This document shows positions 2,271-58,868 of a stretch of 64,000 bases of DNA, one piece after another. The position numbers were made by a program, and so were the translations under genes. Within the stretch, counting starts at the first letter, position 1; every line of letters begins with the position of its first letter. The stretch lies in NCBI GenBank assembly GCA_037951105.1, contig JBAMJV010010141.1, positions 17,079 through 81,078 on the forward strand, in the 5' to 3' direction. The notes under the pieces were generated by a model. It worked only from the letters and a program-made list of their open reading frames with translations. It ran no database searches and had not been told where the DNA came from. Source of the stretch: Echinarachnius parma. Its lineage: Eukaryota > Echinodermata > Echinoidea > Clypeasteroida > Echinarachniidae.

Positions 2271-2440
<170 letters not shown>

Positions 2441-4660: not shown

Positions 4661-4670
4661 GCACGACGTG

Positions 4671-4830
4671 GCATCCCCCCCCCCCCCCCCCCCACCCGTC
4701 CACCCTCCCGAAAAAAATGTATTTGAAAACACAACAGGACACATAAGGGGACATTAAAACAAATACATACATTTGGTTTGCCCCCCCCCCCCCCCCTATT
4801 TTTTGCGTGACCACACCGTTCCCCCCCTCC
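4671..4830. repeat. Poly-C tracts
   Basis: Two uninterrupted or nearly uninterrupted C-runs of about 15-20 nt lie near 4674-4694 and 4782-4796, with further C-rich DNA to 4830. Similar long G/C homopolymers recur through the window (13.87, 14.02, 20.2, 20.43, 21.15, 23.0, 39.7, 42.9, 43.0 and 63.3 kb). Confidence 0.85.
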
Positions 4831-4999
4831 CCCACAGTTAGTCTACTCACGCTAGGCCACACTGCTCATCGTAGTTATTACTATGCATCAAAGGTGCAAC
4901 GTATTGGAGACGCGCTGATACATCAGACACGAACTATCTCACATACTTTTTCCTGGCTAACCTTTTCAAACAAAGGAAATATGATAACAAATGCAATTT

Positions 5000-7900
5000 T
5001 TTCATTCATTCAATTCAATAAGGGTTTATTCAGATGACGTTCTTGCAGCCGAAGCTGAATTGCATGGTCATTTACAAGGTAAAAAGCATCATTATGGTTA
5101 AAATACAGCAATGCACAGGTAAACATCAAATATAGATTACATATCAAAGAGTAAATAGAAATATACTAGATAAAGTCATACGTATAATTAAAAAGCAACA
5201 TAATTAAACATCAAAACAAATATACGACATGCATGCGAGTTACTGTTGTGAATAATAATCATTTAAAATGCGAACAAAATAGGGAATAGAGCTATTCTTA
5301 AATCGGTTGGTTTTACAATTAAATGGAGTATATTTCTGAACATTTCGTAAATTAAAATTGACAATTCTTTGACTTGGCAGCCACGAGGAACAAAATTCAT
5401 GTTTTTCTAAGTTAATGGCAAAATCAAAACAAAGTTTATTCCTACGTTCCTCCAATGTTAATAAATTGCACAATTCCAAAGCATGATTATATGATTCATA
5501 ATAAAGTCCCAACATAATTATACATGCCCTTTTTTGTATTCGTTCAATATCATCTGTTTGTTTGATTGTTAAATTGGAATGAAAAAGTGGTGCACAGTAC
5601 TCTAATATTGGTCTTATATATCCAATATAAACAATAACGAGATCACTAATGGGTAAATTAAAACGTTTCAAGGTACGTAACATATATAACTTTCTATTGC
5701 ACTTCTTTATCATTTCCTTTACTTGAGTATCCCATTTTAAATCACATTGAATATAAATTCCAAGAACTTTAATTACATTTTCTTCATTTAAAAGTGTCCC
5801 ATTAATATACAACAATTGGCGAGTTTGAGTTTTCATAAAAGAGACCGTCATGACAATGCATTTAGTTGGGTTTAATTTCATGTTATTGAGTAAAGACCAA
5901 TTCTCTAATGACAATACTTCTGATTGCAATTTTGATATTTGTGTACAAGTCCGACTTTCTACAATAGTTAAATCATCAACATACTTATAAAAAGGGAGTA
6001 AACAATCATGACATGCATCATTAACCATTATTAAGAATAAAATAGGCCCCAACTTTGTACCTTGAGGAACTCCTACATTATTAATTTTTACATCAGAAAT
6101 ATGACCTTTATATCTTACTACTTGTTGGCGGCATTCTAAAAAATCAACTATTAATGAAATGACACATGGTCGTACACCCAATTTAACAAGTTTACAAATT
6201 AAAATATTATGATCGATCCGGTCAAACGCTTTAGAAAAATCAGTTAAAACTATAGTTGAAATTGTTTTTTGTTTATCTGCATTTTTATATAGATTATGTA
6301 ACATCCCAATTAAATAATGGCAAGTTGAAAGGCCTCGACGATTCCCATACTGATTTTTATCAATCACATCACCAATATCCTCCCACAACCACTTAGCAAT
6401 GAAAGTTTCTGCTATTTTAGCAAAATAAGAAGTTAGGGCTATGGGTCGTAATTCAAGAAGAGTTGGTGGATATGATTTGGGTACTGGTATTATCTCGGCA
6501 TACTTCCAAACTTGCGGAAAAACCCCTTGTTTAAATGCAAAATTAAGAATACAACATAATGGATAAGATAACTCATAAGCAAATTCACGTAAAATTCGAA
6601 CAGGCAAGTCGCCTAAAATAGTTGATTTCTGCAAATTGAGTTTACGTAACAAATCATACACATCTTTCGGTTCTATTATTGGGCAATCAACAGGTGAAGG
6701 TAAATATGCTGGTAACTTTGTTTTATCAAGTTTCGGGAGATCTGCTGCCACAGATAAAAACTTATTATTAATACAATTAGCTGCTTCCTTAAAATGTTCA
6801 GGTTGATCAGCTGCAAGACCTGGTATGTCGATCGATGGTTGATCTTGAGGTCCTTGGGTAATGAGTTTTATATGTCGATACCAATCAGCAGGATTATTTA
6901 TTTTAAGTGTATGAATTCTTCTATTATAAAATGAGTCCTTAGCCAATATTATTGCATCTATAACTTTATCTCGAAAGTATTTCCATAGCTCGATATCATC
7001 AGAGTGCCAAGCTTGCTGTCTTCTTTTAATTAATGATTTAATCTCACAAGATATCCAAGGCTTATCAGTTTGATGAAATTTGACAGTCTTAGTAGGTAAG
7101 GACTGATCAATATGTTCTCGCACAACACTATAAAATAAATTACACATATCCGTAGGATCAGAAATTTGATATAAATCTTCCCACGTGTGATGGGTTATCC
7201 AAGTGCCAAAATCTCGGAGTCCACTATCTGTCAGAGGGCGCACTATCTTTGTCCGCGTCTCGTTGGTCAGCTTGCCAGGTTGACAGAAGAGGGCTGAAGG
7301 GCGCCACAGGATGCCGTTGTGGTCGCTCATCCCTAGCGGTGCAAGGATCTCAACCGGTTCATATGCGTAATTAAAATTTGTAATAATTTTATCTAATATA
7401 TTTTGACCTCTTGTTGGTTTGTTAACAACTTGACAAAAGGCATCATTTGCTAAAATTTGGTTCACATCAAGATCATTAAAATCTCCTACTATAGCAAATC
7501 CTGCCTCTGGATATTGTATTAATAAATGATCGATAGTGGAAACTAGATGATCAATGTATATATCGGAAGTCGGGTGCTTAGGAGGGTAGTATACGACACA
7601 AACTATGATGCTCGAGATTCTCCTAGGTAACCGCGGTGGTCGCAGGTGAATCCAGATGACTTCCAGCTCATCAGGTACGTTGATCGGGAGGGCCCGTGGT
7701 TTGAAGCGATGCTTGATGTAGGCTGCTACTCCACCGCCTTTCTTCCCAACTCGTGGCTTGGAGAAAGACATGTATCCGGCCATCAAGAAGTAATCAATCG
7801 GTGTATCAGGATCCAGCCAGGTTTCCGTGATCGCCAAAACATCAGCATTATAATTGTTAACTGCAACGACGATTTCATCAAATTTGTTTTTTATTGATCT

Positions 7901-8570
7901 CGCGTTCATCAAATAAAGAGTTGGTAGATCATAAGTTCTCTTCACATTCAATAAGACAGATGGTTTAATATGAATAAGATTGCTTGCACAGCTTATTCTC
8001 TTTTCAAAACGTTTACTTCGAGTCTTGTGTGGTTGTAATAAAACTGAGATCTGCTGACTGACATTCAGTAACGAAGTCAAATAAATGTACTCTCGTTGAA
8101 TAGGTGTGAGTTTGCGCGTCCCAGCGCGCTTTCCCCGATGAGTACGGGTAGGGCACTTTGAAATACCAAGTTCGACGACGGTTTTCCATGTTGCAGATGG
8201 TAAATGATTACATTCATTGTGTGATCGCAGTTTATAAAGTTCAGAAATCGAATAATGCTGGTTACGTTTCACAAAGACGGGACCAGGATTTTGGTGTATG
8301 TCACCACACACCAAAATATCAATGTGTAAACATGCTGAAGAGTTTGAGTAATATAAAGTCGGTGCCTTTAAATACTTGTGATGGTGAAGCAACTTTCCAG
8401 TTAATCTTGGATAATAACTAGATTTACTCGTAATGTTAATTGTACATACTTGTTTATCGTGTTTATTGCAACACACAATCAGTGCAAACAAGATGGCAGT
8501 ACACGGCCAGTTCATGATGAATAGCTGTTTAGATGCACTATTTACAGCAAACAAATCTTTTGTCCCAGTT
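5000..8570 (-). mobile_element. Apparently intact non-LTR (CR1/Jockey-superfamily) retrotransposon with a 2A-like N-terminus
   Basis: This element carries the 5,240-8,515 reading frame. On its own strand the 3' UTR is about 240 bp and ends near 5000 in AATAAACCCTTATTGAATTG followed by AATGAATG repeats, a short-repeat 3' terminus typical of CR1/Jockey-type elements. The 5' limit is not defined: the frame is closed by a TGA at 8570-8572, and a 5' UTR probably runs further into 8,573-8,980. I could not identify target-site duplications. There are no internal stops or frameshifts, which suggests recent insertion. Confidence 0.8.
5240..8515 (-). CDS. Endonuclease-reverse transcriptase polyprotein with DIHQNPGP 2A-like motif
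   Basis: Target-primed retrotransposition protein, about 1,091 residues from the first ATG at 8515. The frame is open 13 codons further up (to 8554) but with no ATG, and a TGA closes it at 8570-8572. Residues ~1-16 are hydrophobic (MNWPCTAILFALIVCC), signal- or anchor-like. At ~72-79 lies DIHQNPGP, a 2A-like 'ribosome skipping' motif with His where the canonical DxExNPGP has Glu. The AP-endonuclease spans ~200-400: LYLMNARSIKNK, ITETWLD, GGGVAAYI, GDFND, SDHN. The RT spans ~665-920: TDFSKAFD with the first catalytic Asp, GVPQGTKLGP, and YVDD with the metal-binding pair (YVDD rather than the FADD of the other elements here). The C-terminal domain follows. All catalytic residues expected by eye are present. 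Confidence 0.9.
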   Translation of the reverse strand: MNWPCTAILFALIVCCNKHDKQVCTINITSKSSYYPRLTGKLLHHHKYLKAPTLYYSNSSACLHIDILVCGDIHQNPGPVFVKRNQHYSISELYKLRSHNECNHLPSATWKTVVELGISKCPTRTHRGKRAGTRKLTPIQREYIYLTSLLNVSQQISVLLQPHKTRSKRFEKRISCASNLIHIKPSVLLNVKRTYDLPTLYLMNARSIKNKFDEIVVAVNNYNADVLAITETWLDPDTPIDYFLMAGYMSFSKPRVGKKGGGVAAYIKHRFKPRALPINVPDELEVIWIHLRPPRLPRRISSIIVCVVYYPPKHPTSDIYIDHLVSTIDHLLIQYPEAGFAIVGDFNDLDVNQILANDAFCQVVNKPTRGQNILDKIITNFNYAYEPVEILAPLGMSDHNGILWRPSALFCQPGKLTNETRTKIVRPLTDSGLRDFGTWITHHTWEDLYQISDPTDMCNLFYSVVREHIDQSLPTKTVKFHQTDKPWISCEIKSLIKRRQQAWHSDDIELWKYFRDKVIDAIILAKDSFYNRRIHTLKINNPADWYRHIKLITQGPQDQPSIDIPGLAADQPEHFKEAANCINNKFLSVAADLPKLDKTKLPAYLPSPVDCPIIEPKDVYDLLRKLNLQKSTILGDLPVRILREFAYELSYPLCCILNFAFKQGVFPQVWKYAEIIPVPKSYPPTLLELRPIALTSYFAKIAETFIAKWLWEDIGDVIDKNQYGNRRGLSTCHYLIGMLHNLYKNADKQKTISTIVLTDFSKAFDRIDHNILICKLVKLGVRPCVISLIVDFLECRQQVVRYKGHISDVKINNVGVPQGTKLGPILFLIMVNDACHDCLLPFYKYVDDLTIVESRTCTQISKLQSEVLSLENWSLLNNMKLNPTKCIVMTVSFMKTQTRQLLYINGTLLNEENVIKVLGIYIQCDLKWDTQVKEMIKKCNRKLYMLRTLKRFNLPISDLVIVYIGYIRPILEYCAPLFHSNLTIKQTDDIERIQKRACIIMLGLYYESYNHALELCNLLTLEERRNKLCFDFAINLEKHEFCSSWLPSQRIVNFNLRNVQKYTPFNCKTNRFKNSSIPYFVRILNDYYSQQ

Positions 8571-36424: not shown

Positions 36425-36699
36425 TATTCATTCGTCAATAGTCTTTTCACGCATACAATTTTATCATATTTGCATTACAATTATTGTTAACAATTTAAAC
36501 AGAGTGTTTATACCGGGGAAGTGATGATATCTTCATCCCATTCCTTACTTAAAACTTTGCACAAATTTCAATTATAATCACGACTTATGTATTCAGTCGT
36601 CCAGTCTTAATGCATACAATATCATCATAAGCATTATGATCATTGTAAACAATTTAAACAGAGTGTATATACCGGGGAAAGTGATTATAATTATGTTCA
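36424..36699. repeat. Two tandem copies of a ~125-bp host repeat
   Basis: AACAATTTAAACAGAGTGT, TATACCGGGGAA and GTGAT occur at ~36,490 and ~36,648, with CATTCGTCAATAG / CAGTCGTCCAG before them. A third relative is at ~39,598-39,620 (TTTTAAACAGAGTGTACCGG). Confidence 0.6.
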
Positions 36700-37161
36700 G
36701 GGCAATTCCACGATAAAGTGGACATGACCACCAAATTTTCAAAATGGTCAGATAGTTTCAATTTTGGTATCAAAATAAAGCTTAAGAACTGAATTTTTAA
36801 AGTCTGACCTTAAAAATAGAAATATACATCAGGAACATATTAAAATATGCGCATAAAATATGAATAATTAATTTTCACCCAAATGTCTGGAAAACGTGTT
36901 GAAAATAAATCAATGTAGCAAGAGCAAGTAAGACAGGAGGTAAAAACTTATTATATTTTCTCAGAGGTTTAGGGTTGAATGTAATTAAAAAAATCATTGA
37001 AGTTCATTTTTTTCATTTTGATACGCTTCAATGAACAATTCATTTATGATAAAGAATATTGTCCCGGTGTTATGGTAAAAACTGATATTTTTAGCATTGT
37101 AAGAAAATTACGAACACAAAAAAAAATAGATGGATCTTCGATTGCGCGCAATCGAAAATTA

Positions 37162-38035
37162 TGCCTCCGCTATCGCACGATTTTAATATCAAGCCCAAAT
37201 TAACATGCACTGATTTAATTTTTACAAATATTTTTCATATATTTTGAGTCCTGTGACCTTGACCATATGACCCCAATCTTTGATGGCTCCCTAAAAAACA
37301 TTCAGGTACCAAGTTTGATTGAAATCTGACATTTAGTTCTTGAGATTTTGGCATTACAAGATTGTTTGCATGTATAATGAGTCCCGTGACCTTGACCTCA
37401 TGACCCCAACATTTTATGGCTACGTTGACTCCTTTATGATACATTCAGGTACCGAGTTTTATTGAAATCTGACATTAAGTTCTTGAAACTTTGCCATTAC
37501 AAGCCATTTTCGCATACATATTGAGTCCTGTGACCTTGACCTTTGACCTCATGACCCCCAAATCTAATCAGATCAGTGGCACCCCGATATGTACACGCAT
37601 ACCAAGTTTGAAATTGATCCGTCAACCGGTTCTTGAGATATCGCAAGAAAAAGGAATTTTTGCACATACATTGAGTCCTGTGACCTTGACCTTTGACCCA
37701 ATGAACCCCAAAATCTAATCAGATCATTGCCACCCCAATATCTGTACTAATACCAAGTTTGAATTTGATCCGTCAACCAGTTCTTGAGATATCGCGAGAA
37801 CGAGGCATTTTTGCATATATATTGAGTCCTGTGACCTTGACCTTTGACCTCATGACCCCTAAAATCTAATCAGATCATTGTCACCCCAATATTTACACTC
37901 ATACCAAGTTTGAAATTGATCCGTCAACTGGTTCTTGAGATATCGCGAGAACGAAAACGGTACGTACGGACGGACGGACGGACGGACGGACAACCCTAAA
38001 GCATAATGCCTCCGGCCACTTCGTTGGCGGAGGCA
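37162..38035. mobile_element. TA-flanked TGCCTCCGC element, copy 2, with iterated TGACCTTTGACCT
   Basis: TA|TGCCTCCGC at 37,160-37,170 and GGCGGAGGCA|TA at 38,026-38,037. The interior consists of about six units of ~120-150 bp, each with TGACCTTGACCTTTGACC or variants, CATGACCCC, TACCAAGTTTGA and GTTCTTGAGATATCGC. A GGACGGAC run and a small hairpin (TGCCTCCGGCCA / TGGCGGAGGCA) mark the right end. TGACCTTTGACC is a DR1-type direct repeat of the nuclear-receptor half-site AGGTCA; that these are bound in vivo is not shown. It is inserted inside element I. Confidence 0.75.
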
Positions 38036-38339
38036 TAAAAACTTAAATTGCCCAAATCGTGACCACACATATCTACCATAAACAAGTATCAAAATGATGA
38101 TTGGACATTTCATTAATTAATTAAAAATGGTTGAATAGTGGTCCCGATGTTACGGTCACTGTAACACCGGGACTGTAACACCGGGACTTACATTGCAATA
38201 GTACAGGGAGCATAGAGAATCACTGCATACTAAAGTGACCAGCTAGTTTCTGTCATGTTGGGGTGGTAGCTTGATGTATACATACTAAATTGTTGCTTGA
38301 TCTACTACCTAAAGTAAAACTGTTTTGAGTTTTTAGTAA

Positions 38340-39010
38340 GACAACCCATTTTTCCATAGACTTTGTACATTACAGTCCCGGTGTTACGGTACAATTTTGT
38401 ATACTCTAGTTCATAATTATCTTGATAATAGATTTTTTTTACAAATAACACCCAATTATTATTATTGAGTCTCTACTACACCAAATCAACATAGCCACTT
38501 TTCAAAATGTTCACTAACTTCTCAGAGTTTTGCCAGTAAAGTAAGACAACCTGATTTTCCATAGACTTTGTACATTACAGTCCCGGTGTTACGGTACAAT
38601 TTTGTATACTCTAGTTCATAATTATCTTGATAATAGATTTTTTTTACAAATAACACCCAATTATTATTATTGAGTCTCTACTACACCAAATCAACATAGC
38701 CACTTTTCAAAATGTTCACTAACTTCTCAGAGTTTTGCCAGTAAAGTACGACAACCTAATTTTCCATAGACTTTGTACATGCCCTTTCAGAGGTCCCGGT
38801 GTTACGGTCACGGTGTTACGGTACAATTTTTTATATGCTAGTTCATAATTATCTTCATGATAGATTTTTTTTCCAATTAACACCTAATTATTATTATTGA
38901 GTCTCTACTAAACCAAATAAATATAGCCAAGTTTCAAAATGTTCATTAACTTCACAGAGTTTTGCCAGTATGTAAAGTGTTAAAAAAAGCATGTCCTTTT
39001 TGCGTCCCGG
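38340..39010. repeat. ~205-213-bp tandem repeat inside element I
   Basis: TCCATAGACTTTGTAC, then TCCCGGTGTTACGGTAC, ATAATTATCTTGATAATAGA, TTATTATTATTGAGTCTC and CTCAGAGTTTTGCCAGTA recur in that order. The motif starts at 38,376, 38,581, 38,794 and 39,005. The first two units are almost identical; later ones diverge. Confidence 0.9.
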
Positions 39011-39210
39011 TGTTACAGTAGTAATTAATGATGCGTAACTCATTAATAAATGAAAATTTTGTATTAATTTTTTTCTTTCAAAGTTGCTTGTGATAACAGT
39101 CAAAGATATACAATAAAAGATTGTTCTCATTCTTTACACTTAGTTTGTTATTTACATTTGGAAAGTGAAAATGTGTTCTGAAGTGTCCCGGTGTTATCGT
39201 GGAATTGCCC

Positions 39211-39841
39211 TTCATTGAAAACCCTTTGGATTGTGAGTAAATTATTTACCCGCCTTTCTACAACATGATGCACAAGAAAAGAAGGTTTAGCCTAACCATC
39301 TCGCAATCCGCTCAGGATTGATAATACAATATACTAAAGGGTGTAATTGTATTAAATGCATGAAGAAACAGCTATGATCATTCCCTTCAAGGCAATGTAT
39401 TCACGGGTTTCACAAGGATAAACATACCATATTAGTATTATAATACTAAATTTGGAAATCAAACTTATAGGACAAAATCCCGCCGATTTGGAGATAGAGG
39501 CTTACTTACTAACTTCGCAAATGTGTTGGTATAATTTTTCGTCATGTGTTTGTCATGCATACAATTTTATTATGTTTGCGTTAGTATTATTATAAACTTT
39601 TAAACAGAGTGTACCGGGGATGGGTCGGGTTTATAATTTTCACTAAAAGGTTGTATCGCAATGACATGTGCAAAAGAGAGGGGTGGCGGAGGGGGGGGGG
39701 GGGGGGGGGGGTAAAACGTCTGAGTCTCTTTCATATTTCCATGTGGAAAGGAAATCATTTTTTAAGAGGTCGTTGTGGTCTTAAAATCGTGATCGCTTTT
39801 CTCTGACAAAAAAAAAACGCGGATTTCCGCGGGTCCCGCTA
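39211..39841. other. Non-coding DNA with poly-G tract
   Basis: Holds the diverged relatives of the 153-bp repeat (~39,360) and the ACAGAGTG repeat (~39,600), and a G-run of about 21 nt at 39,690-39,711. No gene. Confidence 0.5.
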
Positions 39842-41052
39842 GTATAATCATTATTAGAAAAGGATGAGCTGCATGTGTGGTTCAAGTGAAAATGAGGAAG
39901 AAGAGTTGCGCTTAGAAAGGAGCTGTGCATGAGAAGGCTCAATATATCATATCAGATTACATTTTGAGTCTGCGAGTAAAGAAATACATTGTTCAGGATG
40001 ACGTAAGGACGGACACAGAATAAATGGGCGATATTATTTAATGATATTCATTAGATTTTAATAAAAAACAATTGAAAATTTTCTTACAAAATAATATTAA
40101 TCGATGGAGCATTTTTTATTAGAGAATTCCATAATTTGGAGCCTTCATGATATATAACTGTATGTTGAGCAAGGAGGGTCTGCAAGGGAGGTAAATACAA
40201 TTCTTCAGAATGTCTAGTTGGATAACTATTGACTGAGCTATTAAAAAAAAAAAAAATCTTGAAAAAACAGATGGCAACATATTATTATCATAAATATACA
40301 TAAATTGACCAAGTTGAAATAAATATAGATCTTTTACATTCCGTATCTTATTTAAAAACAAACATAGAGTCTGTATGGGAGAGAAAGGGGGAATTACAAA
40401 TAATACGAATATTCTTCTTTTGTAATAACAACACTTTATATAATAAAACTTCATGAGTGTTACCCCGAACTAAGATACCATAATGGGAGTATCAAAGAAG
40501 TATAAAGCATACTTAATGAATTAAAAGGAAGACATGTCTTCACTTTATAAATTATACCAATGTTACGAGAAATAATTTTACAAATATTATCAATATGAAA
40601 TTTCCAAGTAAGGTTATTATCAACCGTTACACCCACAAATTTAAAGAATGAAACACACTCCAATGTGGTGTTTTACAAAACTTTGTTAGCCGGTAACATA
40701 TCTATAGGTTTACTAAACAAAATATATTTTGTTTTCTGGATATTCAATGATAAAATTGTTCGCTCTAATCCACAATAAAATATGATTCATTTCAATATCA
40801 ATTTGTTCAACTAATCTATAAGAATCATTATGAGAAAAGACACATTCGTATCATCAGCAAAAAGTACGAAAGACAACATTTCAGATGATCGACAAAAGTC
40901 ATTAATATATAAAATGAAGAAAAGTGGGCCTAATACACTACCTTTCTAATGTTTAAAACAAAAATGCTCAATGTTTCCGAGGTGGCAACACAGCCGAATT
41001 TCTCTATAAAACATTTAGAACTACTGGACTATATGGTATACACGTATACATA
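39842..41052 (-). pseudogene. Truncated CR1-like RT pseudogene, copy A
   Basis: Minus-strand pieces across frames read: GPLFFILYINDFCRSSEMLS and FADDTN (~40,840-40,950), ECVSFFKFVGVTVDNNLTWK and HIDNICKIISRNIGIIYK (40,460-40,660), then LYLFQLGQFMYIYDNNMLPS (~40,280). They align with the C-terminal third of the intact protein at 53,922-57,035 (FIKFLGVIVDDKLSWK, LYLYQLGQFMYKYDNN), so it is a sister family. Several frame changes kill it. It matches 51,603-52,810 and 60,655-61,863 at high identity, but here the 3' UTR is shorter. Confidence 0.8.
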
Positions 41053-42917
41053 TACCGGGCGTATCAAAAAAAGCGTTACACTTTTGAAAAAATTGTCAAC
41101 ATTACACTTTATATATTTATAAGATTTTTTCATGTCGATGGATGCCCCATGGTCTCATCTATCAAGTGCCACTAACAAAACAAATTTTCGTTCACGCTTG
41201 GGCGAACACTGACAGTTTTTGTACAGAGTGTCAAAAATGGCTTGCGCCAAATTGAAAGAAGAGGGACAATTAAACCAGGAGACTGAATAAGTACTCCCAT
41301 TCAAACAAATTGCTCTTTGCCATAAATTTAAGAATATTTTATGATTGTGTAATAATTTTGTGGCAATTTTCTATCATAATTTAACTGATTTCATTGTTTT
41401 ATATGCGGGCCTGTTTCAAAAAGATCGTAATCATGTCGGACAGAATTCGATAGCAAATGTGGCTGTCATTTTTGTTCCAGAGGTAGTGGGCTTACATTAT
41501 TGTACATGGATATGGAGAGCATGTACATGGTTTTCAGGATATCAAAGTATCTTTCCAAATTTATTTTCTAAATTTGGTCAGGGCTGCAAAAATTGACCAT
41601 GTCGGACGGAATCGATAGAAATGATGACCCCACACTTTTTGTATTCAAGTTGATATTCTATCAAAAGTTTAACTGATTAGTTTCAAATTCAGTCACATGA
41701 ACAGACAAACAAGTATAGATTTAATTCTCAGAAAGCCTTTATTAAAACCTTGTTGTCATGGAAACAGAAACTTCTAAAAAGAAGGTCATGTCGGACGGAA
41801 CACATACATGTCGGACGGAATTAAAAATGTTACTATTTTGGCAACTTGCCAAAATCATTAATTCTGTACCTTTGGTAGAAAGGTTATGATAGGTACTAAT
41901 GTTGTGGATAGTTGAAAAGAGTTCACCTCTATTCATAAATTTGATATCATGGAAACATTGAACAAATTCCGTCCGACACGTTCGTTTCCGTCCGACATGA
42001 TCAAGCAACTGTTTTCAGCGTTGTGAATTATGCCTTGTTTCACAAAAAAAATACTATGTAGGTTTGAAAAGCTCACAATTTACAAGATTAAGAATGAATT
42101 GGGCATTATAAACTGCAGTTAATTTGGGGATAAAATCAAATGAGAAATGTAGGAAATTACATGAAAATTGTGATCCTTTTGTGACCTTTTCAACTGACCC
42201 ACGATCAAAGTTACAAAATTTCCATTTTGCATTTTCATTAAAAAAGTGGTGCAAATTTTCACGCAAGTTCAGTTGTCAATGATAAATCTAAGATTCTAAC
42301 AGAAATACATGTCAAAACCTGACCTTTTATTATATTTCTGATTTTGTAAATTGATTTCTGGGTAGTTTCAAAATAACAATCAAAGGAAATTCAGAGGAGT
42401 ATGTACAGATTTCCTTTCATTAATGATTTATAAATTCATTTTTTAGGGAAGCATAAGGACCGCTATTCATAAGGACTGCTATTCATAGGGACCGCTATTC
42501 GATATTTGAAAAAGGGTCATTATTCATAAGGACCGCTATTCATAATCGATAAAGAGGGTTGCTATTCCTAATATGAGAAGAGGGTCGATTTTCATAATTT
42601 ACAAAATCGGGGTCGCTATTTATAATTTACAAAATCGAGGTCAAAGAAGAGGGTCGCTACTCATAATATGAGAAGATGGTTGCTATTCATAATACTGAAT
42701 GAGAGTCGCTATTTATAATTACAAGCATAGGGTCGCTATTCATATGAGAAATGGGTTGCACTTCATAAAATATGATTCAAATTTCCCTTTTCAATGATCC
42801 TTATTAAATGATCCATAAAATTTGCCCCGATTATTTACGTGACCCCCAAACAAGGCCGATCCAGGCATGATAAATGCTATTGTGCCAACAGTTGCGATCA
42901 GGCTGAGTGGTAGGGGT

Positions 42918-42934
42918 GGGGGGGGGGGGGGGGT
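42918..42934. repeat. Poly-G tract
   Basis: An uninterrupted run of about 17 G within the nested element region. Confidence 0.85.
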
Positions 42935-43012
42935 AGATATCGTATTTGCAAATATTGATTCCTACGCCCTAGTTTACCGTGAATTGCGCGATTCCATTAA
43001 GAATGTCATTTC

Positions 43013-43278
43013 AGTGGCGGATCCAGGGGGGGGGGGGGGGGGTTAGGGGGTTTAACCCCCCCCCCCCCCCCCCCCTTGGGCTGCCAAGTGAAAATGTATC
43101 AGTGAAAAAGGAGAAAAAAAAAGTGACAAAAAAATCACTTACGGGGTTCAAAATAGCAACAACAAAAAATCGCCGAGAGGGGGGACACCCCCCTCTCTCC
43201 AGACTCTCCCCCCACTTCCCGCTACACGGCTCGGAGCGAACCCCCCGTTACCTAAAAGCTAGATCCTCCCTGCATTTA
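43013..43278. mobile_element. hAT-like MITE remnant with G/C homopolymers
   Basis: The left end CAGTGGCGGATCCAGG followed by a G-run and a C-run is the typical start of a widespread hAT-type MITE. The right end, CTAGATCCTCCCTG, is an imperfect inverted match. CATTT occurs just outside both ends, partially consistent with a hAT 8-bp duplication. No transposase. Confidence 0.5.
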
Positions 43279-44840
43279 TGCAATTCCATGATTAGAGGAA
43301 CATTCAACACCATATTCTATTTAATTTTTCTCAAATCCTGTTTCTTTTTCAAGCTTCTTTTTCTCAGGAATCACAATTAAATTGAGAGAGCTTTGATTTC
43401 CGACCTCTAAATCACACTGTCGTGTCCTTGTTACAGAGAAACAGAACTATACATGAAATGGCACATGTGGGACTACACATGCTTCTAAACACAGTTTTAT
43501 GGGATTTTAAAGAAATATAAATTTCTTTTCCATTTCTTTCTTTTGGATACTATAAAACACTTCATATTACACCAACCAGTGTCTCCTCTATGAATTTTAA
43601 ATGCATAAAAACATCATTTTAATTTGGATGGACAAACTGTAACGTACTCACCAGGTTTTCATTTTTACTAAAACTAAACAGACATATTTCAATATTTGAT
43701 ACATCACACCACTTGCAAAGTCACTGTTAATGGTGTTATAATACAAATTTGTTTCAGATGACTCCTGTTTAAATAAAAGAAATATTTTTCACAAGGACTC
43801 ATGTTTTTGTCCATGTCCTTTTTTTATAACGTTACTAACCAAAGTTTGAGTCTGTATTGTCACTGGAATTGTTTTTAATTACTGTGTGAAGAAGGTTTTG
43901 TCGGGTGGTATAAAATGTACCAGAAATTTAAAGAAAATATTCAGGCATCTTTATGTAACATCCTATTACATTCAGGGCCACTTGTATGAATTAGGAATAC
44001 AATGTAGTGCCCTTTCTTCATGATTGTGAATAGCGAGTTAAGCGATCCTGATTTTGTTTCATGAATAGCAATCCTCATCTCACATTATGAATAGTGGTCC
44101 TTATGCCTTTATGAATTAGAGTGATCCCTTTTGCATTTCATGAATAGGTTCTTATGACTAGCGAGGTTACCCAGGAATTAAGCTTCCTAGGATATAGTAC
44201 ATACAAGTACATGTAATTGTAAAGTGTCAATTAAATGAAACTTAATGTTGAACTACATGTAGCATGTATACATAGATGTTTTTGACAATTTGAAGTGAAA
44301 TTAATTGATTATGAAGTGATCTATCATGCATTATCTTGTCCTGTTTTGCCTCTAATATTGCTGTAAATTAAAGTGTGCTTGGAATATGAGCTTCTTTCTC
44401 CTGAAAATACGTTAATCATAAGGTTTAGAGACAATCTGCAAATTACAGTGTATGTCTCCCTTTGTATGAATGTGCTGTCTCACAACAAATTCCGTCCGAC
44501 ATGCCAGTTTTTATGTCGGACGGAAAAAATGTCCACCCTTATTTTTCCTTACTTGATGAAGGTATTTTGTCAAATTAATTATTTGTGCTTGAACTACATT
44601 TAAGTTATTAATACTTGCCAGGGAAGAATAAATAAAATTGTTGATATTTTTTTATGGGAAAAACTTCTCGGAAAATTTGTGCATGTCGGACGGAAAATTT
44701 TGAGTTCATATTTTAAAAATTGCAGGAAATCTACATTTCATCATATCTGGCTCCAATTTATTAATAAAGTGGTTGATATAGATGTTTTATAATATCTATG
44801 TGCAGATACATTTGCAACAAAGAAATTAAACTGCTACATG

Positions 44841-45868
44841 GTCGCATGTCACAAGGTCGTGAAATTTGTGTTACATGGTCAAAATGGTCAAAAAAAGTAT
44901 TTTTGGATATGTTATAGATATTGTCAAACTCTAGTTATTCATACCATTTTCGTCTTCAAAATGTTTGTCGTTAAGGCATAATTGCATAATTAATGACTAA
45001 TTAGTCCATAGACTGCAATGTAAATCAGAATATTCTAATGCGTTTTTCTCAAAATGAACCCTTTGCACTTAAGGCAGTCTAAAATTGTAATGCTTTCATG
45101 TATCAAAGTCATATTTTCAGGATATATTATGGATACCCTAATAATCAAATTGAGAAGTGAAAGTTAATTCTAAGTCATGTCAATAGGTTGTTAATTACAC
45201 TTTAATTAATTACCTAATTATACGGTACCGCAGTACAGCAATACTGATGCTCCTATGAGTCTTTGAAATATCTTATTGCCAAAAAAGTTGTCTTTTTACA
45301 TGCAGATATTAATGTTTAGTTAACAGTAACTTCAAATTGGAAGATTTCTTAATTAGCATACTTTAATTTGGCTAATTAATTTAATTAACTGTCATGTGTA
45401 GGCCTACACAATACGGTGTACAACCTAGCTGTTCTCTAAAAATAATAAATGGGCCTTTTACAAAAAAATCAAATGAAATTCATGTTCAAGACCTATAAAA
45501 TGTTTTTATATTTGCTGTAAAATGGATAATTCCATAAAGCAACACAAATTAAATAAGATAAACAACAATTTTGACATGTAAATTACTCATTTCCTCCTCC
45601 TCCTCCTCCACCTGCTCCTCCTCCACCTGCTCCGCCACCCCTACAACTTGTAATATATACAGCTGCCATTTTTTAGTATTAACTTTGTTTTCAATAGTAT
45701 TTTCCACATTGGTAGCCCTATATTTCAGCTTTAAAATGAGACCTTAACTGGGTTAATAGCACAAGGGGTTGCTGAACTATGACATTTTTTCTTCGCAAGC
45801 GTTCAGAAAAATGTAACAACGCCACCCTTTTTGCCTACGAGGTGGTGACATGCGACCACATAGGACCT
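44841..45868. mobile_element. Nested inverted-repeat segment (TGGTCGCATGTCAC)
   Basis: CATGGTCGCATGTCACAAGG at ~44,838 and GGTGACATGCGACCACATAG at ~45,852 form inverted ends of 14 matching bases (TGGTCGCATGTCAC). Between them is AT-rich, non-coding DNA with CCATAGACTGCAATGT and AATTAATTA phrases, and a CTC-rich stretch (~45,592-45,640). It is placed between motif copies of element II. It could be a further small member of the same style of element. Boundaries approximate. Confidence 0.45.
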
Positions 45869-46199
45869 TGTCCTTTCATAGAAAAAATTCCGTCTGACAT
45901 GCTTGCAAATTGGCATAATGTTACATAAATGACAAAATAATTACTAAATCATGAAATATTTGCATGGAAATAGATATTTTGTGAAAGAGCAGGTATGAAT
46001 AAAGCCCAAAATGTAAATAAACATCATTTACAACTAAGTTTTAAAATTCAGCAAGATGGTTACCCATTTTGAAACAGGCCCATGCATGGGTGAGAATCAA
46101 TAATGGGTAATTACTTCAAGATCTTTTTTAAAGCACAGACACATCAAAACCACATGCCAGTCATTCATTCAAAAAGTACCAAATCAATTAATCTTCAAA

Positions 46200-46315
46200 T
46201 CCTTCAACCGATTCATCAATCAATCAATGAGAAATCAATCCATCAATCCATTAATCAATCCATCAATCATGTCCATCAATCTATCAATCCAATCAGCCCA
46301 TCAATCTATCAACAT
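46200..46315. repeat. ATCA/ATCC imperfect tetranucleotide microsatellite
   Basis: Repeated CAATCAATCAAT and CATCAATCCATCAAT units, in the short piece of host element lying between motif-iterating elements II and III. Confidence 0.9.
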
Positions 46316-46329
46316 GAATATTCGTTAAT

Positions 46330-49131
46330 GGGCAGGTCCAAGCTATTTGACTTGTGACGTACGGGACATTCACAGCTTTCAAGTGAATATTATTCAAAGG
46401 AAGGAGCTATGATCTGGAATCTTTTTGGTGCTTTGGAAAGCTACTTATAGTCCCTTCCTAAAATGCAAAAAAAAATATTCAAAATGCTCGTTAAAATTTA
46501 ATTATGCTAATAAATATGCAGCGTGACGTACGGGACCAGAGAAATTATGACTTAAAAAAAAAAATGTGTATTGTGAAAACTCTCTGAATCTACATGGCAG
46601 ATAACAACTTATTCCTGATATATGCATTTGGTCATGCGTCCTCAGGTCGCCTCCTTTTGCGTTACATGCCGTTTTGGGCTTCTGCGGGACAATGTTACAG
46701 TTGAGAGCAAATATTTTCTGAGGAAGACCCCCTACCCTATCAAAACTATACATATTCTGAAAGGAAATTACCCAAGGAACCCAAATATGCACTCAGAAAG
46801 AACACTAGGTGTACAGGTAATTTTTCACATTAACCAAAACATGAAAAAAAAATTACAGATTTAGAGGTCAATATTTTCCTGATAACTTTTTCTAATGTAG
46901 TACTAGACAAGAAATTATAATGTTTTCTTGCAGAGCAGACTTAGACCTTTACAGCAATATAATATTGTATGGGGTCAATTATTATTTTGCAGGACATTTT
47001 TTCATTCATACTTCAGGAATTTTGAAATTTTAAATAATCAATACTTTTCACTAAGTAGGAGTCTCTAGATGAATTGAATATAGAGTAAAGCCTAAATATG
47101 ATGAGCCATAATAGAGTTTGATAAGTAAGCTTTAATTTGATACCAAATTTGTATTTTGAAACCTTTTATTTATAAAAATATTAACGTTTTTACCAAGAAT
47201 TCACAAGATGTATCGGTCAAGAGTTTGCCCCCATAGAGTCTGTACAGGAAACCCCCAATTTTCTATGTTTGTGTTGATTTAATTAAAATTTGATGTGGCA
47301 AAAACACTTTCCAATCATTTGACATTAAAGTTCAATGTCTTAGCTTTCATTTGATACCAACGTTGTTGATATACATCTAGTTTTGACAAAGTTATTAACG
47401 TTTTAAGAAAAATTGCACTTCGAGAGACATTTCCCCATAGACTTTGTACAGGGGCGCCGCTTCCTGCGGCGCCGCTTCCTGCGCCACCCTCTTGCTCCAA
47501 CCTTCAAATAGCTGTATCTCCACTTTGGGAAGAGGTATACCTTTCAAACTTTGCAGAAAGATAGCATTCTGGGAGCTCTTTAAAATGATACCAAATTTGT
47601 GAAGAAAGGTTTTCAGGTTTTGAAGAAAATTAAGAAAATGTTAGCAAAAAAACTCAAAATGTAACGGCGCCACCCTATATGGAGGCGAGTTCATGACACA
47701 TGACCATTTAGTAACCATTAATATACGCACTGCAAAAAAAAAAAAAAAATTATGACCTTTTATCCCATGATAATTAATGAAAGAAAATAGGTATGCGCGT
47801 GACGTACGGGACATGTGACGTACGGGACATTTTTCCCTCATGTTTTATTTGTCATTTTCCTGCTTTTATTTTTAATTCTTTGGGTCCATTTTGCAATATA
47901 TTTGTTCTTATTGTATTTATTCAATATTGTGATGATTTAAAACTCAAAAACAGCTTCCGCAATACATTATAATACGACTTTAACAAATTGAAGCTCTGAA
48001 ATCCGATAATTTGCATTAATTATGCTAATTACTAATTAAGAATTAATATTTGATTTGGCTTCAAAAGATGTGGGATACATCTATCTGATGTAAATTTCTT
48101 TCAATATTGACAAAAAAGATTTGAATATGAGAAAATTAAACAGAATCATCATAAATTTGGCAACTTACATGAAATCCTACACATGGGACTATTTAGAACA
48201 AAAACTACAAATATTTTGTGCCTTTTTAGCACTTTCTTGCAGTTTTTGAACCTGTTTGGAAGGTCTTGGTGTACTGAACCAATGTAATACTATATTTCCT
48301 TCATTGACATGCAGTTTCCCTACTCAAATTGACTGTCTAGTAGTTTAGATAATTATTTAAAGGTAATTATGAGGTATTTCAAATTTCCCCCTCCAGACAC
48401 ATTTTCATCAGTATGTAGCTATAACGCGAAGTATGATGTGGTAATTATGTAATTACTTTTAGAGGTAACTCCTAAAGGTAAGAAGTATTTATTCTGAAAT
48501 TTTTAAGAGTATCTAAGCAAGAATCAGTGGTAAAACACAAAACAAATAATTTTCACCTGGCTTGCCATTGCTTTAACACTGAAAATGTCCCGTACGTCAC
48601 ACTTTTGTCCCGTACGTCACATGTCTCAATTAGCTAATAAAATCAAAACGAAAAATGCTGTTTTCATAAAACTTAGCTAGCCAGTCAAGAGTATGATAAA
48701 TTAGAACTTCACAAAATATGAAAGAAAAAAATTAAGTGTTTCATACTGAAATATAAAAAAAGGTGTTCATTTTTGTGACGTACGGGACATTGCAGTTTGG
48801 ACACGCCCTAAATAGCATAATTAATTAATTTTGACCCTTACAAATTTGGTCAACTATTGCTAGTGATTAGTTTTACTAGTCCCCATATATGAAATTAAAG
48901 CTTGATTGATAAAATTAAAATTAAAAATAGAAATACAATGTCCCGTACGTCACGCTAATATTTGAAATATGCAAATTAGATGCTCACTACTCGTTAAATA
49001 TGCATATTATGCAAATTTCTGTACTAAAAATCTAAACTTCAGACTTTTAGCTTTGAAATGATACCAAATTTGTAAAGCTAACATGAAGATGAATTTTCAC
49101 CATCAAGGGGGACATTAGCTTGGACCTGCCC
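46330..49131. mobile_element. Motif-iterating GGGC-end element III (GTGACGTACGGGACAT)
   Basis: The left end GGGCAGGTCCAAGCTA and the right end TAGCTTGGACCTGCCC are perfect inverted repeats. The outside tetranucleotides are TAAT and TTAT (3 of 4 match). The interior (2.8 kb) is AT-rich and non-coding, with about nine copies of GTGACGTACGGGACAT in both orientations, singly and as close pairs (46,356; 46,523; 47,800/47,815; 48,586/48,607; 48,775; 48,939). It also repeats the phrases TTTGATACCAAATTTGT (47,138; 47,588; 49,058) and CCATAGACTTTGTACAG (47,432), which have counterparts in element I. No transposase. Confidence 0.8.
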
Positions 49132-49176
49132 TTATGCATGCTTCTGGGTCATCTTTTGTATGTGTCACACTCGATG

Positions 49177-53130: not shown

Positions 53131-56100
53131 CAATGTTCAATGTTCAGTTTATTCATTTTCAACAAGAATTTACATATATTTTACAAAGAATAGGTCACAA
53201 CATTTGTGAATTATAAACAATAAATTTTACACATTGGCAATACAAACAATTTGTGTAAAATAATCATTAATTAAATACGACATTTTAAAAAAATTTTGAA
53301 TAAGGTAATGATGACATTTAGAAATAATAATGTCATAAGAGCGGAATCAGAAAATAAACGAATGTTGCTGTATGATTAATTTCAAGTGAAAATGGAGGGA
53401 TCCACTAAAAAAGCGTGGCTTGTAGAATGTGGAACCCCTCAAAGAGTAATATTTTACAAAGTAATGGAAGTATCAAATACGAAAAAAATACGAATAATCA
53501 AAAACGGAAGAACTATGAATTATAAAATACAAAAAAAAACAAAAAAACAATCAAGATAATCAAAATAAAGTGATCAGAAGTATTACAAAAAAAAATGTAA
53601 TTATTGCAAAACTTGTAAGTTTTCAAAATAGTGTTTAAAATAGAGTTGTGCCTACGAAGACTACTGAATAGAAGATGTATGAAAAATAAAACGCAGTGTG
53701 GAAGCATACTGTGAAAAGAAGATGCTGTACAAAAGACAATGAAAATGTATAAGATATGAATGGATTGAGAAGGTATGGAATGAGAAGGTAAGGACCAGTC
53801 CTGCAAGACTAAAATAAATGTTATAAAGTAGAATTGAATCAAAGGCGCAATTTCAAAAATAAGCAACAATAATGTTTAATGGCTCGTTACGATGACCCCT
53901 TTTCATTACCAAAAGATTAGTTTAACTAATATCATAGCGTTTAGTTAAATACATTTTAAGTTTACGTTTAAAAGAATTAAGTGAAGGTACATTTTTCATA
54001 TCTATATCAAGAGTATTCCAAAATTTAGGACCATCATAAATAAACGTATTCTTTGCTAACAAAGTTCTTAAAAGGGGTAAATGAAATTCATTTGACTGTC
54101 TAGTTGGATAATTATGAACCGATTGATTTTTAAAAAACATAAAATCGAAAGCTGGAGGTAATAAATTATTATCATATTTATACATAAATTGACCTAATTG
54201 ATATAAATACAAGTCATGAATTTTTAATAATTTATTATGAAAAAATAAAGGGTCAGTGTGGGAGCGTGCAGTGGAATCACAAATTATACGAATAATCCTC
54301 TTTTGTAGCAATAATAGCCTATCTAAAAACGATTGATGCGTGTTCCCCCAAGCAAGAAGTCCATAGTTTAAGTACGGCAATATTAAAGATGAGTATAACA
54401 TAAACAAAGAATACATTGGGAGACAAGTTTGTAATCGTTTTATCACTCCAATATTACGCGAAATAGTTTTACAAATACTATCAATATGACATTTCCATGA
54501 AAGTTTATCATCAACAATGACTCCCAAAAATTTAATAAAAGGCACCTTTTCCAATACATTATTATCAAAAACAATATTTAAGGGCAAAGAATCTATTGAT
54601 TTACTAAAAAGCATAAATTTTGTTTTCTGAAAATTTAAAGACAATTTATTAGCTCTTATCCACTGGGAAATTTTAAATAACTCAATATTAATCGTTTCTA
54701 CTAAACTATGTGGATTTCTGTGAGAAAAAAATAAATTAGTGTCATCAGCAAATAGTATGAATGACAATATATCGGATGATTTACAAAAATCATTTATATA
54801 AATAATAAATAAAAGTGGACCCAATATGCTTCCCTGGGGAACGCCACAAGTAACATGACGAAATTCAGAATTAACATCATTTAAAGAAACATACTGCTTT
54901 CTATCAGAAAGATAGCTCCGAAACCATTCCAAGGCCTTCCCACGTATACCATAATTAGAAAGTTTATAGAGTAAAATATTGTGGTTAATAGTGTCGAAGG
55001 CCTTGGAGAAGTCAAGGAAAATTCCTACTGTGTGTAATGATTTATCAATAGCATGTGCCACCTTATCTACAAAAGACAATAAAGCATGAATCGTGCTATG
55101 TTTTTCCCTAAATCCAAATTGAAAATTAGAAAAAATATCATTATTCTTTAAAAAGGAAATAGTACGAGTATATATTACCTTTTCTAAAACTTTAGAAAGT
55201 GTAGATAACAAAGAAATTGGACGATAATTGCCAACATCTAGTTTGTCTCCTTTTTTAAAGAGGGGGACAACCTTAGCAATTTTCATAATATCCGGGACTT
55301 GACCATTTAATAAAGATAAATTAAAAATATGGACGAGAGGATCAACTATAGACAGAATAATACCTTTTAATAAGAAATTATTTATACCATCGTAGCCTGA
55401 ACTTTTCTTATTATCTAAATTAGAGACTATATCCAAAATCTCATTTTTATGAATAGGTACAAAAAAAATCGAATCAGGATTGGGAGTACTTAAAAAATCT
55501 GTAAAATGTTTATCAGAAGCAGGAATATTTTGAGCAAGATTCTCTCCAATTAAAGAAAAGTATTCATTAAAAGTATTACTTATTTTACCAGGATCATCAA
55601 CAATTACATTATCCTGTCGAATACTAGTTATTTTTAATTTATTTGTATTTAAATTCATTGCTTGTTTAATGATCTTCCAAGTTTTCTGCATGTCATTTTT
55701 AGATAATTCTAATCGATTAACAAAATACCTTCTTTTTTCCAAACGTATGAGTTTAATCAATGTATTTTTATAAGAAGTATATTTTAATTTAAGTTTATCA
55801 GTACCTTTTAATTTATATTTATAATATAAATTATTTTTTCTATTTATCGATCGCAGTAAAGATTTAGATATCCAGGGGAGTCTTGGGGAGGTTTTATAAT
55901 TACAAGATTTATCTCTTTGTTGGGGGATATCAATATCTAATTGACCATCAAAAATATTTAAAAATTTATCGTATGATGAATTTACATCATTATCATTATA
56001 CACAACAGACCAATCAATATTATCCAAACTAGCGCCAAGACGCGCTACATTTTCATGCGTTACTTTACGAATTAAACGGGAAGGATCATCATATTTGACC

Positions 56101-57100
56101 ACTGGAGCTACATTATATTGAGTTAAAATGGGATAATGATCAGTAATGTCAGAAAGAACAATATAAGAATTCGGGTGAGGTATAACATTACTAAAAATAT
56201 TATCAATAAGGGTGGCAGAAGAATCTGCAACACGAGTGGGCTTAGAAACAAGAGGGAGAAAAGAGGCCGACAAAAATATTTCAAGAAATTCATGTGACAC
56301 ATTATTATCAGCATGTTTCAATAAATTTATATTATAGTCACCCATTATAAAGCAATCTTTATTCACAAATAGGGGGTTCTTAATTAAGTCAGTAAAATAC
56401 ATTAAAAAATCTTTTAAACTAGAATTCGGTGGACGATAAATGACTCCAACTAATATATTTTTATGGCCCGGCAATATAACTTCAATAAATAGGGACTCTA
56501 TTATATCATTTATTAATGAAATATTTTCATGCACTATGTAACTAAACCGTTTTAGTACATACATAGCTACACCACCTCCTAATCGATCTTGTCTATTTCT
56601 ATAAACAAACTCATAATCATTAAGGGCATGTGATGAATCTACATCTTGAGTTAACCAAGTTTCAGTCAAACCAATTACAGAGAGAGGTGTTTGAGAGGGG
56701 ATATCTAACAATAATTGCAAATCATCAAAATGTTTATTTAAGCTTCTAATATTCAAATGTAATAACGAAAAAATATCTTTACTATAATCTTTAACCACAT
56801 TATGGAATTGTTTATTTGTTATATAACTAGTGAGAGTTTCTGTTGCTGGGTCATCAAAATGAAAATCGAGGTTTAATTCCTCTGATAAAGCATTAAAAGT
56901 ATGACCCACAGAATCATCATATTGTCCCACTGGATCATTATTTATATCAATATTCCCTAAATCTGGTCTTAATAAATAAAAAAGGTCATCGTTATTCAAT
57001 GAATTGAATGGAACGTTGTTATTCAAATTAGCCATTAATAACCAAAACCATATCCCTAAGAAAATGAACGCCAAGTACAAAGTTTATAAATAATAATAAC
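53131..57100 (-). mobile_element. Apparently intact CR1-like non-LTR retrotransposon
   Basis: The 3' end (low coordinates) consists of the reverse of CAATGTTCAATGTTCAATGT (53,143-53,165), that is three ACATTGA repeats, preceded on the element strand by AATAAACTG. The 3' UTR is ~790 bp and contains a GGGATCCACTAAAAAAGCG block (53,397) homologous to the tails of copies A-D. The single long frame is intact. The 5' UTR probably extends beyond 57,100 toward ~58,250. Target duplications were not identified. Confidence 0.8.
53922..57035 (-). CDS. Endonuclease-reverse transcriptase of a CR1-like element
   Basis: About 1,037 residues from the ATG at 57,035. The frame is open 15 codons further but with no ATG, and a TAA closes it at 57,084-57,086. 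After a polar ~90-residue N-terminus come an AP-endonuclease (LLHLNIRSLNKHFDDL ~92, LTETWL ~124, GGGVAMYV, VIYRPPNSSL, MGDYNIN ~231, SDITDHYPI ~295) and a linker. The RT follows: NYRPISLLSTLSKVLEK; FLDFSKAFDTINHN with motif A Asp ~675; CGVPQGSILGPLLF ~730; ILFADDTNLF with the metal-binding pair ~764-765; FLGVIVDDKLSW. The C-terminal domain is LYLYQLGQFMYKYDNNLLPP. No stop or frameshift is seen, and length and order match a complete ORF2 of the CR1/Jockey superfamily. No zinc finger or ORF1 was found upstream. Confidence 0.92.
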   Translation of the reverse strand: MANLNNNVPFNSLNNDDLFYLLRPDLGNIDINNDPVGQYDDSVGHTFNALSEELNLDFHFDDPATETLTSYITNKQFHNVVKDYSKDIFSLLHLNIRSLNKHFDDLQLLLDIPSQTPLSVIGLTETWLTQDVDSSHALNDYEFVYRNRQDRLGGGVAMYVLKRFSYIVHENISLINDIIESLFIEVILPGHKNILVGVIYRPPNSSLKDFLMYFTDLIKNPLFVNKDCFIMGDYNINLLKHADNNVSHEFLEIFLSASFLPLVSKPTRVADSSATLIDNIFSNVIPHPNSYIVLSDITDHYPILTQYNVAPVVKYDDPSRLIRKVTHENVARLGASLDNIDWSVVYNDNDVNSSYDKFLNIFDGQLDIDIPQQRDKSCNYKTSPRLPWISKSLLRSINRKNNLYYKYKLKGTDKLKLKYTSYKNTLIKLIRLEKRRYFVNRLELSKNDMQKTWKIIKQAMNLNTNKLKITSIRQDNVIVDDPGKISNTFNEYFSLIGENLAQNIPASDKHFTDFLSTPNPDSIFFVPIHKNEILDIVSNLDNKKSSGYDGINNFLLKGIILSIVDPLVHIFNLSLLNGQVPDIMKIAKVVPLFKKGDKLDVGNYRPISLLSTLSKVLEKVIYTRTISFLKNNDIFSNFQFGFREKHSTIHALLSFVDKVAHAIDKSLHTVGIFLDFSKAFDTINHNILLYKLSNYGIRGKALEWFRSYLSDRKQYVSLNDVNSEFRHVTCGVPQGSILGPLLFIIYINDFCKSSDILSFILFADDTNLFFSHRNPHSLVETINIELFKISQWIRANKLSLNFQKTKFMLFSKSIDSLPLNIVFDNNVLEKVPFIKFLGVIVDDKLSWKCHIDSICKTISRNIGVIKRLQTCLPMYSLFMLYSSLILPYLNYGLLAWGNTHQSFLDRLLLLQKRIIRIICDSTARSHTDPLFFHNKLLKIHDLYLYQLGQFMYKYDNNLLPPAFDFMFFKNQSVHNYPTRQSNEFHLPLLRTLLAKNTFIYDGPKFWNTLDIDMKNVPSLNSFKRKLKMYLTKRYDIS

Positions 57101-58270: not shown

Positions 58271-58868
58271 ACTCAAGTGAACGCTAGCGGGGCTAGCGTT
58301 CAAGGTCGGGCTGATAGTCCCCCTGAATTTATGATCTAATGTGCACAATAAGTGTGCTTAAAATTATACATATGATACGGTACTTACCACCAATTAGATG
58401 ATACATATGTGATGCAACTATGGGGTGGATCAGAATGATGATTTTTCGCTCCATTCCGCATCAAAATGAGTGATTTATGCACATCATCGACTTCTATCTG
58501 TGTTGTATCGCGACTTCTGAACGATCGATTACCGTACGACCACTAAACGCGCGAGTCAGATCTGCCGTCTATTCGGCGGGCGCGGTACTTGAATGGAGAC
58601 CGTTCGCGCGATCATCGATCGTTCAGAAGTCGCGATACAACACAGATAGAAGTCGATGATGTGCATAAATCACTCATTTTGATGCGGAATGGAGCGAAAA
58701 ATCATCATTCTGATCCACCCCATAGTTGCATCACATATCATCTAATCGGTGGTAAGTACCGTATCATATGTATAATTTTAAGCACACTTATTGTGCACAT
58801 TATATCATAAATTCGGGGGCACTATCAGCCCGACCTTGAACGCTAGCCCCGCTAGCGTTCACTTGAGT
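58271..58868. mobile_element. 598-bp foldback element with ~255-bp inverted arms
   Basis: Arms 58,271-58,529 and 58,614-58,868 are inverted copies differing by a few substitutions and one 4-bp indel (ATACAT versus AT). The 84-bp centre is GC-richer. The outer end of each arm, ACTCAAGTG..., contains its own hairpin GAACGCTAGC-GGG-GCTAGCGTTC. Flanked by 13-bp direct repeats TAGGCATAGGCTA. No coding sequence. Terminal nested palindromes plus very long arms resemble foldback-type elements, but a 13-bp duplication is longer than the 8-10 bp usual for hAT, Mutator or sea-urchin TU elements. Confidence 0.88.

Follow-up and report, generated by a model that had tools for sequence, protein, structure and literature searches.

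Three neighbouring elements (I, II and III) in a 64-kb window of the Echinarachnius parma genome, by which we mean the whole 64,000-nucleotide stretch analysed on contig JBAMJV010010141.1, belong to a class of mobile DNA that is real, large and coherent. They are probably non-autonomous cut-and-paste DNA transposons of one superfamily, and the short GC-rich motif that each family repeats near its ends probably serves as the binding site of that family's own transposase. II and III are placed in the superfamily by their ends, their target duplication and the positions, or slots, that their motifs occupy. The new part of the class is these conserved slots, which recur at a nucleosome-like step.

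Each element is bounded by perfect terminal inverted repeats (TIRs) that start GGGC: 17 bp in I (GGGCAATTCCACGATAA), 15 bp in II (GGGCCTGTTTCAAAA) and 16 bp in III (GGGCAGGTCCAAGCTA). The 4-bp target site duplication (TSD) is exact in I and II and has one mismatch in III. These boundaries and duplications agree with a preliminary description of the window, drawn from its letters alone, as does its estimate of ∼8–10 private motif copies in both orientations; allowing 0–1 mismatch, we count ten copies in I, ten in II and eight in III. The commonest 10-mer with at least four G/C occurs eight times in each element (a poly-C run in II was left out), against a maximum of 2–3 for 10-mers of this kind across 100 dinucleotide shuffles. 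Over the full 64-kb window, the non-simple 10-mers that contain CG and have at least four copies within 6 kb were words of the three motifs, one short repeat near 58.3–58.9 kb, and nothing else. The preliminary description saw the motifs as studding the interior. The copies are indeed present; in a full-length family I element, they form two subterminal arrays rather than an even scatter. A nested insertion of ∼0.9–1.1 kb inflates each of the three window copies, so some of their motif distances are larger than in clean copies.

All three families recur throughout the 1.2-Gb assembly (14790 contigs). Exact termini of I, II and III occur 263, 84 and 559 times, respectively, and the reversed patterns, used as controls, 0 times each; motif III occurs 1766 times against 6 in its control. 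Sixty regions bounded on either side by exact termini were taken, five from II, 26 from I and 29 from III (those of I and III drawn from the first 100 listed termini), and the window elements bring the total to 63 copies; for L033, which has two left termini, the inner one was used. An exact 4-bp TSD flanks 51 of the 63 (25/27 in I, 3/6 in II and 23/30 in III). One mismatch is seen in two copies of I, one of II and six of III, and two or more in none, two and one, respectively. No duplication reaches 5 bp. The exact duplications follow a WNNW pattern, with A/T at position 1 in 22/25 (I) and 21/23 (III) and at position 4 in 25/25 (I) and 22/23 (III). The search thus bears out the expectation of 4-bp duplications at many loci, and the 63 copies did not realize the concern that other copies might end elsewhere or lack the 4-bp duplication.

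Full-length relatives encode a DDE/D-looking protein, the probable transposase. Copy L025 is a 5532-bp family I element with the TIR, the TSD ATGT and an open frame of 707 amino acids (aa), or 687 aa from the first methionine. Short family I copies (L045, L046, L063 and L064) are 87–94% identical to the left ∼930 bp and right ∼660 bp of L025 and lack its middle, and L050 retains a 29-aa fragment of the L025 protein (65%, E 1.6e-5). The short form is therefore an internal-deletion derivative. The L025 protein has at least 66 hits in the genome, the best of which are 28–42% identical across most of its length. At two of these loci nearly the entire element was read, and several other families were read in part. 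L086 (C2632, element 547–5825) has the TIR GGGCAATTCCATAA and the TSD ATAT and defines family IV; it probably sits inside a family III copy, since copies of motif III flank it. L085 (C5374, element 585–7338) has the ends GGCCCATTCTCC and GGCGAATTCTCC and the TSD AGCA and defines family V. The L085 protein is encoded at ten other places (identity 100% when rounded), in a stop-free frame at eight, which suggests that family V was active very recently. Full elements span 5.3–6.8 kb and encode proteins of 687–831 aa. D359, D439 and D480 are invariant in all three proteins and lie in DFxEN, (S/T)DxxxSQ and HGKGxxDGxGG blocks, a putative DDD-type core that would carry out catalysis. The view of a class that has no transposase is thus not supported, as family I and the relatives IV and V each carry one; the longer relatives that had been anticipated exist for I and were not found for II or III among the termini compared.

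Comparison of the three transposases with profile libraries returned nothing above curated cut-offs and no Pfam match; the best sub-threshold matches were Stk19 of Pfam for L086 (E 0.016) and, for L085, an unknown PHROG (E 0.003). The L025 protein had no plasmid match and no PDB match below E 1.5. Pattern searches for bacterial and viral relatives gave 71 and 41 matches, of which 0 were confirmed.

Each family carries its own motif: GTAACACCGGGAC in I, TGTCGGACGGAA in II, GTGACGTACGGGACA in III, GTTACGGACGTACA in IV and GGTAACGTATCTGT in V. We sampled one flank at each of ten further protein-hit loci, counted as sampled loci and not as lineages separated on a tree, with part of the flank pieces positioned by an estimated gene start. 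Five have a repeated motif of their own: GTAACGGAATTACA in family VI (C3306), TGGTAACGTATGTTACA in VII (C5036), TGTTACGTCG in VIII (C806), GTAACACCCGTAACG in IX (C3628) and GTGACTCGCGTGACA in X (C7241), the last occurring 481 times genome-wide against four in the control. A GTNAC half is common to all of these named motifs except that of II. The terminus GGGCAATTCCA is common to I, IV and family XII (described below), and VI instead has GGGCAATTCCG. GGGCAATTCCA alone occurs 10089 times in the genome (75 in the control), and family I makes up a small fraction of these occurrences. Among 100 places listed, its spacings recur near 2.0 and 2.5 kb. A text search of the literature for GGGCAATTCCA gave no evident transposon paper among the matches listed.

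The motifs differ and their positions agree. Measured from the left terminus, sites start at 14, 194, 391, 405 and 618 bp in I, at 28, 192, 383, 403, 561 and 580 in II, at 25, 194, 390 and 406 in III, and at 14, 182, 370, 384 and 406 in IV. From the right, they start at 575, 561, 541 and 374 bp in I, at 569, 546, 376 and 194 in II, at 546, 526, 357 and 193 in III, and at 567, 554, 533 and 378 in IV. These define slots at 14–28, 182–194 and 370–406 bp on the left and ∼193, 357–378 and 526–575 bp on the right. The two ends are asymmetric in all four families: a site lies 14–28 bp from the left terminus and none at that distance on the right. In all four, sites in the three left slots nearest the terminus and in the right slot at ∼374 face the same way; orientation in the 526–575 cluster varies. 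With clusters entered by hand as blocks and the outermost left block fixed in the null, families differ on average by 9.3 bp on the left and by 10.9 bp on the right, compared with 49.5 and 80.9 bp for random blocks; 0/20000 random sets were as good on either side. The spacers are nearly unalignable between families, apart from the right ends of I and IV (74% over 54 bp) and of I and III (alignable at 61–98 in both). When the two ends of one element are compared in II, III and IV, what matches is mostly the motif and its immediate edges. Together with the GGGC termini and 4-bp duplications, these slots, which the preliminary description had not seen, uphold its view that the three elements form one class.

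Blocks are spaced 164–220 bp apart. The best period is 188 bp for I–IV and, with IX left out, 196 bp for families V to VIII, a step close to the nucleosome repeat. In family X, the first 100 listed sites leave 40 gaps longer than 60 bp, mainly of ∼167, 182–196 and 357–387 bp; these copies are relatives, so few of the gaps are independent. The slots also led to the ends of another family. A ∼5-kb insert in the family III copy L031 contains a repeated word, GTAACGTTAC, at slot-like distances, from which termini were predicted near 1595 and 4205–4211. The prediction preceded the terminus search and is reflected in the ranges searched, not in a written note. The search placed one terminus, GGGCAATTCCACGGTTA, at 1596, and its inverted partner, 2/16 mismatched, has its end at 4213; the TSD, ATAG, is exact. 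This element, family XII, has sites at 14, 193, 379 and 394 bp on the left and 591, 559, 542 and 377 bp on the right. Over six held-out blocks (XII and the right end of VI) the mean miss from a slot is 9.2 bp, and 0/100000 random placements were as good.

We scored divergence from the majority sequence in 15 copies of III, nine of I and three of II. Constraint on the sites is clear in III, suggestive in II and absent in I. In III, sites differ at 4/1254 non-CpG and 5/516 CpG positions and spacers at 670/23202 and 37/375; 0/5000 random spacer sets were as low as the sites. In II, sites differ at 0/239 positions and spacers at 103/10165, and 149/5000 random sets were as low.

These findings are consistent with a trans-acting protein that recognizes each private motif, an idea raised in the preliminary description that we keep as the best explanation. 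A family-specific DNA-binding part of the transposase would contact its own family's motif, and the core of the enzyme would contact the TIR. The arrays, one per end, may help to pair the two ends, and short copies that keep both arrays would be moved in trans by a borrowed enzyme. In L025, L086 and the C3306 locus the gene starts downstream of the right-end cluster, which may also regulate the transposase gene. A site in each nucleosome linker would be compatible with the spacing. We further conjecture, tentatively and as a possibility that we do not yet favor, that the ends are measured in nucleosomes, with roughly one transposase-specific site to each step on either side; the slots would be under selection, and the site sequences, often with a GTNAC half, would be replaced at 8–10 slots in concert at each new specificity, so that one genome would hold many natural pairs of enzyme and site.

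Several observations weigh against this reading. Sites in family I are no less diverged than spacers (non-CpG, 11/889 versus 157/12752). No transposase is tied to II, as none of its 84 termini adjoins a protein hit, nor to III among the first 100 of 559 termini and the first 100 of 213 right-end clusters compared. At four of the ten further loci (C8225, in two pieces, C2032, C2726 and C2812) the sampled flanks show no motif, and the motif in the C501 flank is weak and lies within a tandem duplication. The periods, reached in 0/2000 null trials for I–IV and 1/2000 for V–VIII, were judged against a null with a slightly coarser grid of periods, and I–IV are relatives, so their shared period is not independent evidence. 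V and VII have the step, but their slots differ from those of I–IV. Finally, Hermes, a hAT element, kept ∼70% activity with its internal repeats mutated (PMC10368747), so such repeats need not be essential.

We weighed three alternatives to transposase-bound arrays in related transposons. The elements may be transposons whose arrays are sites for a host factor (a silencer, insulator or transcription factor) that organizes chromatin. Such a factor would suit both a step near the nucleosome repeat and a right-end cluster upstream of three gene starts. It leaves unexplained, however, why a different motif fills the same slots in each family while the proteins differ too, and why I, IV and XII have, at one end, a site next to or overlapping the TIR; we consider it unlikely. 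It is very unlikely that the motifs lack a function and arose passively as end sequence was duplicated in tandem and in segments. Family I offers this idea ∼205-bp tandem copies that bear the motif, along with its unremarkable site conservation, and in V the site spacing repeats over ∼417 bp, but the restricted end-to-end matches in II, III and IV, the agreement of slots among families with unrelated spacers and the strong conservation of III sites all speak against it.

That I, II and III are unrelated transposon families, alike by chance, strikes us as very improbable. Their termini and motifs do differ beyond GGGC, and II and III lack a transposase of their own among the loci found. Moreover, the Repbase rule on terminal positions 1–11 (PMC4455052) would join I, IV, VI and XII by their ends alone and would leave out II and III. 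Chance would nonetheless have to produce equal TSD lengths, matching slots at either end, sites that face the same way in the right slot at ∼374 and in the three outermost slots on the left, and right ends that align between I and IV and between I and III.

The class can also be set beside known systems. Kolobok elements target TTAA, which makes up 2/51 exact TSDs here. PIF/Harbinger elements duplicate 3 bp, as against the 4 bp exact in 51/63 copies. Ginger elements encode a Gypsy-integrase-like transposase, for which an integrase Pfam match is expected; all three transposases lack one. The 8-bp TSD of hAT and P elements likewise finds no counterpart, as 0/63 copies extend even to 5 bp. Sola1–3 elements have a 4-bp TSD, a DDD-type transposase, variable TIRs and lengths of 2–9 kb (PMC10741241), and Sola2 has an AT-rich 4-bp TSD and an 888-aa transposase (PMC3627910). 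The 4-bp TSD of our class, L086 and L085 included, and its putative DDD-type core fit this description, and the class is perhaps Sola-like, with Sola compared by description only; we do not assign it there, and the available descriptions (PMC10741241, PMC3627910) do not mention iterated motifs or slots.

CACTA elements carry subterminal repeats that are bound by a TNPA-like protein and diverge between families even within one species, and their deletion derivatives move in trans (PMC2613891). The likeness is in architecture only, as CACTA termini and 3-bp duplications stand against GGGC termini and a 4-bp TSD here, and the available text does not mention conserved ∼190-bp slots for CACTA (PMC2613891). 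Private, diverging subterminal repeats are thus a known kind of feature. With the internal deletions of family I, this leaves unsupported the claim that miniature inverted-repeat transposable elements do not look like this. Hermes has many subterminal repeats recognized by the BED domain of its transposase, and needs ∼220 bp per end in cells (PMC10368747); it differs in its 8-bp target site and in its 4-bp repeats, concentrated near the tips. P elements have transposase sites at unequal distances from their two TIRs and internally deleted copies (PMC7776569), and differ in having one 10-bp site and one 11-bp subterminal repeat per end and an 8-bp TSD.

If transposase-bound arrays are the correct reading, the class makes the joint change of a DNA-binding protein and its eight to ten sites readable, and allows a test of whether transposon ends are built around chromatin. 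We know of no other transposons in which the motifs change while their slots stay conserved at a nucleosome-like step, and searches of open-licence papers that named nucleosomes showed no such report, by title and abstract, among the papers listed. The class is abundant, with one terminus shared thousands of times, and suits the study of how mobile-DNA enzymes change together with their docking sites.

Some long frames proved to be something other than transposases. Those in the family I copies L027 and L028 and the family III copy L032 contain reverse transcriptase domains, with endonuclease domains as well in L027 and L032. The L031 insert, considered as the missing III transposase on a weak tblastn match (E 0.91), is foreign DNA, in which the family XII element is nested; at 4622–6060 it also holds ten near-identical tandem units of ∼156 bp each.

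Table 1. Elements, duplications, motif arrays and insertions in the window
Feature	Position	Strand	Details
Element I, non-autonomous copy	36700..39210	-	TIR, TSD; 'left' end (site adjoining TIR) = 39210; slot map flipped
Element II, non-autonomous copy	41407..46081	+	TIR, TSD; left end = 41407
Element III, non-autonomous copy	46330..49131	+	TIR, TSD; left end = 46330
TSD TTCA of I	36696..36699, partner 39211-39214	.	
TSD ATGC of II	41403..41406, partner 46082-46085	.	
TSD TAAT of III	46326..46329, partner TTAT 49132-49135	.	
Left array of I, near 39210 end	38793..39197	-	motif starts 38793, 38807, 39004, 39185
Additional motif copies of I	38375 and 38580		listed with left array of I
Right array of I, near 36700 end	37061..38187	.	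motif starts 37061, 38141, 38161, 38175; spread by nested insertion
Left array of II	41434..41997	.	motif starts 41434, 41600, 41789, 41809, 41967, 41986
Right array of II	44490..45899	.	motif starts 44490, 44514, 44684, 45888; spread by nested insertion
Left array of III	46354..47829	+	motif starts 46354, 46523, 47799, 47815; spread by nested insertion
Right array of III	48586..48953	.	motif starts 48586, 48606, 48775, 48939
Foreign insertion in I	37127..38038, edges approximate	.	TTATGCCTCCGC inverted pair at 37159 and 38038
Foreign insertion in II	44840..45857	.	inverted ends GGTCGCATGTCAC; 4-bp duplication ACAT
Foreign insertion in III	46630..47705, edges approximate	.	imperfect inverted ends GGTCATG..; 4-bp duplication ATTT

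The nested elements in II and III are both ∼1 kb long and start GGTC, and possibly represent another group of families with 4-bp TSDs. The insertion in I has, besides its inverted ends, a GTGACCTTGACC-type stretch that is imperfectly repeated several times. Single-strand folding of one family I end (L045, 201–700) was less stable than 99/100 shuffles. Elsewhere in the genome, contigs C285, C1536 and C2912 carry many consecutive II termini, as if II-derived units formed arrays. The window also contains stop-free frames of 1109 aa (5243–8569, minus strand) and 1053 aa (53925–57083, minus strand), and a short palindromic word, CTAGCGTTC, that occurs four times, in two pairs, at 58278–58861.

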